From NCBI RefSeq assembly GCF_020382885.2, contig NC_058502.1, positions 6,705,501-6,769,500 on the forward strand: a stretch of 64,000 nt of DNA, in the 5' to 3' direction. The notes beneath the pieces are model-generated. The model searched no databases. It was not told the DNA's origin and saw only the letters and a list, made by a program, of their open reading frames with translations. Within the stretch, counting starts at the first letter, position 1, and every line of letters begins with the position of its first letter. The translations under genes and the position numbers were made by a program. Positions 32,682-61,765 of the stretch are shown here, piece after piece. The DNA comes from Scatophagus argus. Its lineage: Eukaryota; Chordata; Actinopteri; Scatophagidae.

Positions 32682-32835
32682 ATAGGCTCTCTGGACTTAG
32701 CGAGCCGTTACCTGTTTAGACACAAAAGGAGGAACTTTCTGGTCAATAACAAATTGCGACCCAAGGACATTGATGCTCTCCAGTATTTTGTGATTCATCC
32801 TACTGACATCTTCCTTGTCACTTCCCACAAGTCAG
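32682..32835 (+). pseudogene. orphan first coding exon of a SULT3-like sulfotransferase (type II)
   Basis: A 154-bp block of the same length as coding exon 1 of S4 and S6. It reads SLDLASRYLFRHKRRNFLV, with the same donor (gtcagt) and with homologous flanks on both sides (from about 32,340 and into intron 1). The start codon has become ATA, the acceptor tttcag is degraded to ttaatt (a ttttag remains just downstream), and the PAPS-binding TYPKSG is now TSHKSG. No matching exons 2-6 follow before S1, whose own exon 1 is of the other type. An in-frame ATG exists upstream (for example about 32,644), so a chimeric transcript into S1 is conceivable, but the damaged PAPS loop argues for a relic. Confidence 0.8.
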
Positions 32836-33576
32836 GTCAGTTGCTTACAATGATTTTAGCCAAGCTAAACACTTTTACTCGAAATTTACCCACTGTGGGG
32901 CTAATGAAGGATTGTCCTATCTTGGTTACATTCATAAATATTAAACATGAATGAAGGAAAGCACATGTACCCAGACTAGTGCCCAACATATGATTTGAAA
33001 ATATAAAGTACATGCACTAACAGTGAATAAACTTCAATGAAATTGTTTTTATGCAACATATGTATTATTAATCTAGTCCTGAAAATCACATTTTATTTCA
33101 AAGAGAGATACTTTTGTATTTGCATTTTCTAAAAACGCAAATACTAAAAAACTATACATCCTCTATGCAGAATATATTGTCCCCAACATTATAGGTTAAA
33201 AGCTCAAGAACACACAAAAGCTGGAAGAACGACTTCCCAACTCTGCAACTGCTACCAATCAAAGACCACATTAATTGATCAACTGAAATTAATAAAAGTT
33301 GATCAGATGTTGCAATATTTATTATTCACTCCAGAACCATTTACCAAACAGCCTCAGAACTGAGGAACAATGTTGCTGACCACTAGAGTATAAGAGAACA
33401 ATTTAGAAGTTTTTATAGTCACCCAATGAGGATTATCCTTCTTCATGGTCATGGGTATTGACACATTTTACTCGGATTATACTTGCACTTGGCAAATGTA
33501 CATTATCTGTAATGGATGCTCGTTTCAGTCAAAATTCTCTCAACCCTAATAGTCTGGCAGATTTATGTGTTTAAGT

Positions 33577-33598
33577 GTCTGTCTGTCTGTCTGTCTGT
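33577..33598. repeat. (GTCT)n tetranucleotide repeat
   Basis: Five to six tandem copies of gtct in the DNA between the orphan exon and S1. Confidence 0.85.
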
Positions 33599-34259
33599 GG
33601 ACAGATTATATCAATGTGATCATCGTCACAACTGAGCAAGATGAAATCATAAAAACTTACAGGTGTGTAGCTGAGAATTAAAACATGCAGGCCGAGTTTG
33701 ATTATGCGTGTGAACAAATAGGAAAATAACGTTCATGGTTATTATTACATTTTTCTTCACAAACTTTCCCTGTGCAAAGACTTAAAATAAAAATTAAAAA
33801 CATAATTAAAGCAGTGTAAAATATAAATAAAGCAGAATGTGATTATTAAATTAAATTGTATTAAAGTTTATGCCTGCTATGAAACTGATACCAGCTGGGA
33901 CGGGAGTAACAATAGATTGGGAAATAAACACCTGTTTTGAATTTTCCACAGGTAAAGAGGTTCATTGGTAACAGGTGATCGTATAATGATTTAGTATGAA
34001 AGGCTGCTCAAAAGACTTGAAAAGCTCCCTGAAAGGCTGATTCATTCACAAACCAGGATGAGGAGAGCTTGGGAACACTTTGAAAAACCGCTGTCAGTAA
34101 ACACAGTCGGTGCAGTCTTTTTGGAAACGGGGATGTACATGCTAATCATATTAAGTCTTCTATATGTTGTCCTAACATACACACCCAGAGCAATTCAACT
34201 GTATATCTGTCCTGAGGTGCCATTTTATAATTTGTGAACACCCCATTAGATACTCATAC

Positions 34260-58580: not shown

Positions 58581-58683
58581 TATATAATAGTGTCAGTCTT
58601 ACTGATGCATTACAACAGTGGAGGAAAGACAGCAGTGGATTCGTTCAGGTGGTTCTGTTGGCGTTTTCACCTGGTGCGGCAGT
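58581..58683 (+). promoter_or_regulatory. S6 TATA box and leader exon
   Basis: TATATAATA at 58,581-58,589; leader exon about 58,614-58,683, donor gtaagt at 58,684. Same arrangement as S4. Confidence 0.65.
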
Positions 58684-59347
58684 GTAAGTAAAATATTTAA
58701 AACTTAATGCACAACTTTATTCTTAATAGACTGTTTAGTTGCAGGCTCCAGGTGAGGAGAGCAACTAGTTTAAAATAAAAAGGTTAACATTATTGTAACT
58801 TCCTATGTTGCTTTATTCCTGTGCATATTGTTTTGTTTGTTCGCCTTGCATCATTTCATAATATGAATTTAAAAAGATGCTTTTGAAAGCCTTCAGTTGC
58901 TAAATTTTCACACTTACTGCATGTTTTTTAACACAGTGTTTCACAACTGGAACTCATTTGAAAAAATACCTACAGTATAAAATATGTTTAAACAATTTTA
59001 TGTTCCCACATAGTGAGGCTACCTGCCCTCACCTTTGTTACCCTGTGCCAACATCCTGCCTCTCTCTTCCTACAACCAGAAGCCATTCTGCATTTTGTCT
59101 TTTGGCTTCAGTTTTAATCAATGACACTTGTTTTATGTTAAAGCTCTTACCACGACTCCCTTCTTTTAACATTCCCTGAGCTTGTTGAATTTATTCAACA
59201 AGTCGCTATACGTACCAGGTCTTGTTTGGCAAGTTTTATGACATACGTGCACACCCACTAAGTCATCTGACTGGCAACAGCAAGATAGTACAAGTGATAA
59301 ACGCTTTCACAAATTAACTTTAATTCATTTGTTTCAGTTTAGCATCC

Positions 59348-61765
59348 ATGGACTCTCTGGACTTAGTGAGCCCTGACCTGTTCAGACACAAAGGGAGGAA
59401 CTTTGTGGTCAACGACAAAGGGAGACCTGAAGACCTTGATGCTCTTCTACATGCTGACATTCGTCCAACTGATATTTTCCTCGTCACTTACCCCAAGTCA
59501 GGTCAGTTGCTTACAAGAATTCTCGCTAAGATCAACACTTGCCATACAGCTGATTACAAGCGTAAATATAAAGAATGAATGAATGAAATGACTGTGTTGC
59601 TCACTAACCAGACTAACCAGTTGCTCTCCTGGGATCTGCTTAATATAACAGACATGCTGTTTGTTTTCTGTCTGCAAAAAGGATCAGAGCATGCAGGTCA
59701 ACTCGCTAGTGACTACACTGCCTACACTACATTTCTTCCTTCCATTAAAACTCAGATAAAGCAAGATAAGAATACAATAACTTATCTCACCAAACCAGTT
59801 AAGTCAAAAAAGAAAACAACAAAAACCCAAATGAAAACATAATCGTGGTGTAACAATGTAAGACATTTCGCTTGTTTTAATCTGCTCCTTTTCAGTCTGT
59901 GCTTTCTCTTTCTCTCCCTCCACTCTACCACTGACTTCCTGTCGTTTGAGATATTTGAAACGTTTTTCTTCTTCCTGATAACACATATTTTTGAAAATAT
60001 TTGTACAAAATAAATATTCGTAAAGTCATTTGTGCTAAATACTGTATATGGGTACAGCTCCACCAATACAATGTCATGATGCTACAGTGAAATGTCATCA
60101 CTTCATTATTTTATCCCATTAGATATTTGCATTAAATTTTGTCCAAAGTCTTACCAATCTCACCAACTTTCTGGTCATTTTGAATGATAATAACATAAAC
60201 AGGCTTGGGTAAGTACAACCCTTTTGGGATTGTCTCTCTGGTCCTGATAAACTTTTGTATTTGAAACTCAACAGGCACAGTGTGGATGCAGCAGATTCTG
60301 GCGCAGATCATGGAAGCTGTACATCCTGAGTGGGCACAAAACGGCACCAACAGGGTACAAGTTCCTTGTTTGGAGATCAGAATTGCAGACGACCCTTTCC
60401 GAGAAAGACCAGATCCTCGGATCTTTCGCTCACATCTTCCCCCCGACATGTTGCCCCTTGGAGTGAAAGAAAAGCAAATCAAGGTAAGCATTTGCAGTAT
60501 TCAAGCATTGATTCAATCATCCGTCTTTGGCTGAATTTATAAAAAAGACCATGTCTTCTGAGGTGTGAAATCAACATTGAAAGTGCTTGTAATTATGCTG
60601 AAGATCATATTCACATGCAACATATGTATATCTCTTTTACCTTCAGGTTGTGTATGTTTGGAGGAACCCCAAAGATGTCCTGGTGTCATTATATTACTTC
60701 GCTCACAGTTGGGTCTTCCTGGAAACACCTCAGAGCTTTGAAGATTTTTTTCAGCGGTTCCTGGATGGTAACAGTAGGTTACCTTTCTTATTTTCTGTCA
60801 GATGTCCATATTATTGCTCAGCAGATCCTAGAAACTGTGTAGTAATAAAATAGGTACCCATTAGTTAACTTTTGTATAAGTTTTTTATGGCATCCTGAAC
60901 TGTTTCCTTATTAGTTATTCAATAACTAGTTCCCCATTGTCATATAAAAAATCCATCCATCCATGTTATTTCAATACGTGATTGAAATCTCACTTCACTT
61001 TTGTAAGGTTGATTTCATTTTCATGAAACAAACAGTAACCACATACCACACCAGCACCTCACTCACCCTTTGCTGTTATTTTTAGCACTGACGTACATAT
61101 TTGTCTTCATCAGCTTACATGGGATCATGGTTTGATCACGTGAGGGAATATTATGCAGCACGAGACCAACTGAACATCCATTTTGTGCAGTATGAGAACA
61201 TGCTGAAGGTCTGAAAACTTTATTGTACACATCATAGAATATTTGTAGATTTTGGATTCAGGGGATTCTGTTTTATACACAGTGTTACAGCTGCAGCAAA
61301 TGACGTCATATTAAACTATTAACAAACATCTGTGGTTGACAGGACCTCAGAGGAGAAGTTGTGAAGATTTGTGCTTTCCTGGGAAAAGACTTGACAGATG
61401 AGGCCATCGATCATGTTGTGGAGATGTCCACATTCAAAAACATGAAGACCAACCCCAAAGCAAACTACAAGGACTTAGTTGAAACCAGTCATTATAAGAC
61501 AAACACCATGCGCAAAGGTTTGTTTCCACACGAATGTCTCCTCCTGTAAACACATTTCTAACCTTAGATTTCCAATGGTGAGGAAAGAAACCAGAAGCAG
61601 ACGAGAAGAGACTTTTAAATCTCTAACCTTTTCTGTGTCTGAACAGGTGTGGCAGGTGACTGGAAGAATTTGTTCACCGTGGCCCAGAATGAACGTTTTG
61701 ACAAAGTGTTCAAGGAGAAGATGAGTGACTTTCCTCTCACCTGCACCTGGGAGATGACACAGTAG
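59348..61765 (+). CDS. S6: SULT3-like cytosolic sulfotransferase, type II
   Basis: Coding exons: 59348-59501, 60275-60483, 60647-60773, 61114-61208, 61343-61517, 61647-61765 (292 aa). It differs from S4 at only about four residues: Lys/Arg in exon 4 (VKEYY in S4, VREYY here) and a cluster of three in exon 5, where EGIQYK of every other copy is ETSHYK (residues 243-245), just before the RKG PAPS motif. The exon 2 donor is gtaagc (gtgagc in S4). The 3' flank (ttaaattcagctcag, gatcagaggatccctcaaca) matches S1 rather than S2-S5. The nearest downstream aataaa I see is at about 62,415. Confidence 0.9.

Follow-up and report, generated by a model that had tools for sequence, protein, structure and literature searches.

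The stretch of Scatophagus argus DNA considered here (64,000 nucleotides; contig NC_058502.1, positions 6,705,501 to 6,769,500 of the forward strand; hereafter the window) carries, at positions 32682 to 61765, a tandem array of cytosolic sulfotransferase (SULT) genes whose copies, each with a leader of its own, quite probably evolve by unequal crossing-over and gene conversion. With silent sites homogenised and site patterns in conflict in part of the repeat, it is a tandem array under partial concerted evolution. The backbone of the six genes, named S1 to S6 along the array, is homogenised among copies (leader and exons 4-6 and, for S2-S5, also 3' flank and intergenic DNA), while two diverged exon 1-3 cassettes stay separate and the sites of exons 4-6 are shuffled among all six copies.

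Gene content of the array

Self-comparison of the window returned 76 repeat pairs (E up to 1e-10), all same-strand and all between ~32.6 and 61.9 kb, including one 9.7-kb pair with 97.7% identity. Exon mapping resolved six complete sulfotransferase genes with full reading frames, AG..GT at the junctions and exons of 115 or 154, 209, 127, 95, 175 and 119 bp. Exon 1 measures 115 bp and the coding sequence 840 bp in S1, S2, S3 and S5 (type I), against 154 and 879 bp in S4 and S6 (type II). A first-pass annotation of this DNA had proposed six intact genes, an orphan exon and a deletion scar, an inventory that self-comparison, exon mapping, tblastn and blastn confirmed; its two 5' types, with a first exon of 115 or 154 bp on a common 3' half, were likewise recovered by exon mapping. 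The ends of the array are the first base of the orphan exon (32682) and the last base of the S6 stop codon (61765). The genes found by exon mapping are:

35569..37766, + strand: S1, type I; exons 35569-35683, 36059-36267, 36428-36554, 37116-37210, 37345-37519, 37648-37766
41868..44340, + strand: S2, type I; exons 41868-41982, 42543-42751, 42913-43039, 43689-43783, 43918-44092, 44222-44340; leader core at 41016
46319..48785, + strand: S3, type I; exons 46319-46433, 46995-47203, 47356-47482, 48133-48227, 48363-48537, 48667-48785; leader core at 45494
50645..53056, + strand: S4, type II; exons 50645-50798, 51568-51776, 51940-52066, 52407-52501, 52637-52811, 52938-53056; leader core at 49919
55033..57506, + strand: S5, type I; exons 55033-55147, 55708-55916, 56078-56204, 56855-56949, 57084-57258, 57388-57506; leader core at 54208
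59348..61765, + strand: S6, type II; exons 59348-59501, 60275-60483, 60647-60773, 61114-61208, 61343-61517, 61647-61765; leader core at 58622

S1 has diverged from the other copies in its leader, introns 1-3 and 3' flank, and hardly in exons 4-6; it appears as the older, more diverged type I copy. The 3' flank of S6 is unlike those of S2-S5, and ~100 bp of it, to 61865, is still S1-like. A 16-bp tandem duplication is present in the 3' flanks of S2-S5 (44427-44460, 48872-48905, 53143-53176 and 57593-57626), with none listed at S1 or S6.

A bounded variable segment

Types I and II differ in a cassette of ~2.2 kb, which extends from the intron of the 5' untranslated region (intron 0) to intron 3 and has both ends in introns. 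Outside this cassette, that is in the leader and between late intron 3 and the stop codon, the S3-S4 and S5-S6 pairs are mostly 91-100% identical, introns included. The high S3-S4 identity runs on through the 3' flank, that of S6 being its own. In the cassette windows printed, identity falls to 40-90% in both pairs. Having a boundary at either end, the variable part constitutes a cassette, not an open-ended 5' half. The type II versions are:

50090..52290, + strand: type II cassette of S4, starting in intron 0 and ending late in intron 3; S3-S4 identity goes from 94-98% to 40-88% and back to 89-99%; ends approximate
58790..60990, + strand: type II cassette of S6, from the S5-S6 identity profile; ends approximate

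The exon-by-exon alignment that the first-pass annotation had recommended showed unequal divergence, as it had anticipated. Indeed, exons 1-3 are 81.7-87.4% identical between types, and exons 4-6 lie near the 93.6-99.3% of introns 4-5, which are as alike as the exons around them. Intron 1 is close to unalignable between types (47.5-51.0%) and intron 2 reaches 83.2-85.0%. At this level of similarity, exons 1-3 of the two types read as diverged homologues and not as unrelated exons. The shorter exon 1 of type I lacks 39 bp in frame, and 13 residues are missing from its product, including the HKGRNF stretch that in type II aligns with FKGYNF of PDB entry 7v1o, which we take to be mouse SULT3A1. 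Since the orphan exon retains HKRRNF at that place, the loss in type I is most simply seen as derived. Type I would have arisen when exon 1 lost 39 bp in frame, close to residues that contribute to the acceptor pocket of other SULTs.

Homogenisation of exons 4-6

The number of synonymous substitutions per synonymous site (dS) between type I and type II genes is 0.277-0.298 in exons 1-3 versus 0.035-0.079 in exons 4-6, in all eight pairs. Fisher tests on rounded synonymous counts gave P values of 0.0001-0.0035 in the four type I-II pairs tested, and intron 2 compared with introns 4 and 5 gave 2.4e-5 to 3.4e-9, again in four such pairs. Site patterns were counted at biallelic, gap-free positions where each state is present in two or more copies. 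Conflict affects 22 of 36 informative pairs in the coding sequence of exons 4-6, where none of nine sites follows the split by type; in that of exons 1-3, it affects 23 of 2,211 pairs, and the type split is found at 46 of 67 sites. When introns 4-5 are taken together with exons 4-6 (22 singleton and four gapped columns dropped), 60 of 91 pairs conflict, and 14 sites display 13 groupings that require at least nine events. Exons 1-3 with intron 2 (27 singleton, 11 multi-state and 10 gapped columns dropped) yield 59 conflicting pairs out of 3,828. Intron 1 aligns poorly between types, and the count was made both with it (106 of 13,366 pairs) and without it, with the same outcome. Repeat mutation does not explain the conflict, because it would strike the more diverged exons 1-3 harder.

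The identity of exons 4-6 might alternatively reflect purifying selection on the cofactor-binding and dimer-forming half, with exons 1-3 left to drift or adapt. Seven of the eight type I-II pairs do show a lower ratio of nonsynonymous to synonymous rates (omega) in exons 4-6 (0.09-0.61, on few changes) than they do in exons 1-3 (0.52-0.56), and conservation against mouse SULT3A1 is slightly higher in the C-terminal half (42.5-44% identical versus 37-39% for the half encoded by exons 1-3). On the whole, both halves have diverged from mouse SULT3A1 to a similar degree. Against human SULT1E1, the C- and N-terminal halves are 36.5-39% and 33-34% identical, respectively; between S2 and S4, the front halves of the proteins share 71.5% of their residues versus 98.4% for the back halves. 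However, uniformity in introns 4-5 and at synonymous sites equals that of the protein, which already contradicts selection as the explanation; the informative sites of exons 4-6 are heavily in conflict, and about half of the contacts with the cofactor 3'-phosphoadenosine 5'-phosphosulfate (PAPS) fall in exons 1-3. The SULT3A1 control, together with introns 4-5 and synonymous sites, led us to reject selection as the main cause of the identity of exons 4-6, and we regard this explanation as highly improbable. The first-pass annotation had invoked selection or conversion for the common half: conversion or crossing-over stands and selection drops out. The silent-site pattern argues decisively for recombination, and not selection alone, as the process that would keep the common 3' half alike.

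One old event could also be imagined, in which a single unequal crossover fused the front of a type II gene to the back of a type I gene, before plain duplication and with exchange now over. The single switch of S4 between exon 4 and intron 4 fits such a fusion, but the data from exons 4-6 with their introns do not (13 patterns across 14 informative sites, nine or more events), nor does the common block that S1 and S6 possess despite diverged flanks on both, nor the patchwork seen among S2, S3 and S5. We hold a single fusion to be unlikely, and continued recombination is the reading retained below.

Duplication and exchange among the copies

A diagonal profile of the self-comparison exposes a large duplication, the unit of which runs from S2 exon 4 to S4 exon 4 and again from S4 exon 4 to S6 exon 4:

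43750..52450, + strand: first copy of the ~8.7-kb duplication (3' end of S2, S3, S4 to exon 4); second copy at ~52450-61150; ends approximate

The two copies differ by 29 substitutions at 5,995 sites outside 46.5-49.25 kb and by 46 at 2,729 sites inside. S4 resembles S6 up to exon 4, with no difference in exons 1-3, and is type-I-like, not S6-like, from intron 4 onwards; over the 300 bp that follow the stop codon, S2 and S4 are 99.7% identical versus 47.5% for S4 and S6. S4 is thus a chimaera with an S6-like front and an S2-like 3' flank. In the simplest account, S4 and the ~8.7-kb duplication would both stem from an unequal crossover, within the common block, that joined an S6-like gene to the 3' end of S2.

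The divergence outside 46.5-49.25 kb amounts to ~0.5%, a value within the ordinary allelic range, and would be compatible with a partial assembly artefact in which two haplotypes of a single pair were set in tandem as S3-S4 and S5-S6. Nevertheless, the window is free of N letters, and the S2-like 3' flank of S4 next to the different flank of S6 is unexpected for two alleles of one site. Even if such an artefact were real, which seems improbable to us, S1, S2 and one type I/type II pair would remain and the cassette pattern would be unchanged.

Exchange among the copies is further suggested by S5, which follows S3 in its upstream flank and in exons 1 and 4, and S2, with few exceptions, between intron 1 and early intron 3. 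Over the 106 sites of the S2/S3/S5 comparison, the score of the S2=S5 block was reached in one of 20,000 shuffles and the low number of runs (45) in none. We infer that unequal crossing-over and gene conversion would act together on this array, and that the divergence of the two cassettes may block pairing, so that exchange would mostly be limited to the backbone.

Several observations weigh against this scenario. The contrast is weaker for the S1-S2 pair (synonymous sites, P = 0.21; intron 2 against introns 4 and 5, P = 0.024), and exchange has also occurred within exons 1-3, where at least three events are required by coding sites and at least five when intron 2 is included. The leader block, placed here in the homogenised backbone, is mostly type-specific (26 of 37 informative sites) and has therefore been exchanged less freely than exons 4-6. 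Between intron 4 and exon 6, S4 differs from S2 at several positions, some of them common to S1, S3 or S5, and the crossover account consequently needs later conversion. Finally, the whole account is drawn from a single genomic sequence.

Predicted enzyme properties

The two proteins scanned of the six, S2 and S4, match the Pfam family Sulfotransfer_1 (PF00685) with E values of 1.3e-77 and 3.2e-79. Their best PDB match is 7v1o, listed as Amine sulfotransferase (E 4.2e-72 and 2.6e-72), to which S2 is identical at 112 of 261 locally aligned residues (42.9%) and S4 at 117 of 280 (41.8%); S2 reaches 42.2% on aligned residues with SULT2A1 (chain 2qp4). As in mouse SULT3A1, the TYPKSGT, RNPKDV and RKG motifs and the position of the catalytic histidine are conserved. 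Mouse SULT3A1 differs in having a loop 3 four residues longer and in the segment F-K-G-Y-N-F, which has an aligned counterpart in type II and none in type I. According to PMC10939482, membership in a SULT family requires amino acid identity of 45% or more with one of its members. S2 and S4 stay below this value with 7v1o, as does S2 with SULT2A1; with these two references compared, membership in SULT3 is tentative.

Contact lists for human SULT1E1, as given in PMC3866684, were transferred by alignment. All 19 PAPS-contact positions align; 15 carry the SULT1E1 residue (not 51, 105, 226 and 254) and 18 are the same in all six proteins, 105 being the varying one. The equivalents of the catalytic K47, H107 and S137 are invariant in all six, and both types probably bind PAPS in the usual way. 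The first-pass annotation opposed an acceptor half to a cofactor half, a division that fits in part, with 15 of the 21 acceptor contacts in exons 1-3 (four are in exons 4-5 and two have no aligned residue). It does not hold for the cofactor, since 10 of the 19 PAPS contacts are in exons 1-3 and nine in exons 4-6, and acceptor loop 3 belongs to exon 5, i.e. to the common half.

Fixed differences between types occur at the equivalents of SULT1E1 positions 80 (W in type I, C in type II), 83, 85, 138 and 148, and acceptor contacts 20 and 23 lie near the type I exon 1 deletion, although their exact partners are uncertain. These positions suggest that the two types probably differ in substrates. Two results speak against such a difference. 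The excess of between-type differences at acceptor contacts is not significant (5 of 13 versus 26 of 138, P = 0.14), in a test that omitted positions 20 and 23 (ambiguous), 89 and 247 (unaligned) and the four in exons 4-5; besides, omega between types in exons 1-3 is below 1. Depletion at cofactor contacts is not significant either (0 of 10 versus 31 of 141, P = 0.22). Diversifying selection on the acceptor half finds no backing in these values. The dN/dS comparison advised by the first-pass annotation did separate exons 1-3 from exons 4-6 in most pairs, without showing positive selection: omega gives no sign of it overall, and does not speak against its action on individual residues. Three adjacent residues of loop 3 distinguish S4 from S6, two copies with identical exons 1-3, and S6 alone has TSH for GIQ there (61484-61492; four changes in nine bases, all replacements). 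The window contains no donor for this change, the single match being S6 itself.

Related clusters and implications

Parallels come from UDP-glucuronosyltransferase clusters. UGT1 combines variable acceptor exons with common constant donor-binding exons (PMC2819257), and gene conversion is described as not predominant in Ugt1, Gcnt2 and Ugt2 (PMC1885805). Like the UGT1 and UGT2a clusters (PMC1885805, PMC2819257), the present array is made of tandem conjugating enzymes with a variable acceptor-binding N-terminal part, a uniform donor-binding C-terminal part and a promoter per variant. Unlike in UGT1, where there is one common set of constant exons, six genes come here with six complete sets of exons 4-6, apparently kept alike by recombination and not by splicing, and PAPS contacts are also found outside the uniform half. 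Among SULT genes of other animals, two African cichlids gained copies of a gene annotated as cytosolic sulfotransferase 3; this is also a copy-number gain in fish, but it was detected by array hybridisation and copy structure is absent from the passages of PMC3944005 at hand. In Pristionchus nematodes, cytosolic sulfotransferases underwent a comparable lineage-specific expansion, whereas the gene conversion reported in the excerpts of PMC9526060 concerns sulfatase and NAGLU pairs, not sulfotransferases. Searches of an open-licence PMC library aimed at SULT genes, arrays or conversion returned no title or abstract opening that showed a SULT array of this kind.

The array, with its swapped cassettes, is a good case of a known kind. 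It is doubtful, although conceivable, that it goes beyond this and represents a recombination-driven counterpart of UGT1 in which new pairings of cassette and back half arise, with type I as a functional SULT subtype that lacks the segment aligned with F-K-G-Y-N-F and has its own substrate range. These data suggest that an array of conjugating enzymes can hold two substrate modules apart while the other half evolves in concert, and that a UGT1-like layout may be reached by recombination instead of common splicing. They also carry a warning, as gene trees or dN/dS computed on whole coding sequences would mislead for such arrays, and type I offers a natural test of the role of the lost N-terminal segment.

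Relict exons, leaders and flanking sequence

Besides the six genes, the array contains the following elements:

32682..32835, + strand: orphan exon 1, type-II-like relict of 154 bp; tblastn match outside the gene models, 58.7% amino acid identity to S4
34296..34352, + strand: 3' portion of a presumed S1 leader exon; conserved core with a GTAAGT donor at its end, no TATA-like box upstream
38837..39679, + strand: broken Tc1/mariner-like transposase remnant in two pieces of open reading frame (ORF), between the S1 3' flank and the scar
39813..40547, + strand: deletion scar; leader region (39813-40381) fused to a 3' gene flank (40386-40547), no gene between

In the orphan exon, ATG is changed to ATA, leaving no start codon, and TYPKSG to TSHKSG, and the splice sites are kept, including the GT donor. 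Relative to exon 1 of S4, its proportions of synonymous and nonsynonymous differences (pS and pN) are 0.33 and 0.17. It is the only SULT exon above noise outside the gene models in the tblastn listing for the window. At the scar, the leader part matches regions upstream of S3-S6 in blastn (~79%) and the flank part matches the 3' flanks of S2-S5 (89-90%); as the two are joined within a few bases, a gene body has been lost there.

The leader core occurs in seven places, upstream of the six genes and in the scar (at 40355). By eye, it ends with a GTAAGT donor at six of the seven, the scar excepted, and is accompanied by a TATA-like box at five, those of S2-S6. We read it as part of a putative non-coding leader exon spliced to the ATG-bearing exon. 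S2 lacks part of the upstream region. A promoter common to all copies had been proposed. The idea fits S2-S6 well and S1 less well, the leader region of S1 showing 70-88% identity with those of S2-S6. Downstream of the S1 leader and before exon 1 of this gene, the segment 34938-35318 has no listed match to other copies and looks by eye like an inserted repeat.

The transposase remnant matches Pfam HTH_Tnp_Tc3_2 (E 2.7e-7; 31.2 bits, just under the curated cut-off of 31.5) and, below cut-off, the Sleeping Beauty HTH domain (E 7e-4). Homology to the other copies ends at 38698 and restarts at 39785, around this remnant. To the left of the array, an ORF at ~1660-2257, without a Pfam match, was read as an atlastin-like C-terminal part, and, of the six ORFs scanned, two on the minus strand at 3640-6671 have matches to the GBP GTPase domain. 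The GBP-domain ORFs may be exons of an atlastin-like gene, a possible synteny anchor.

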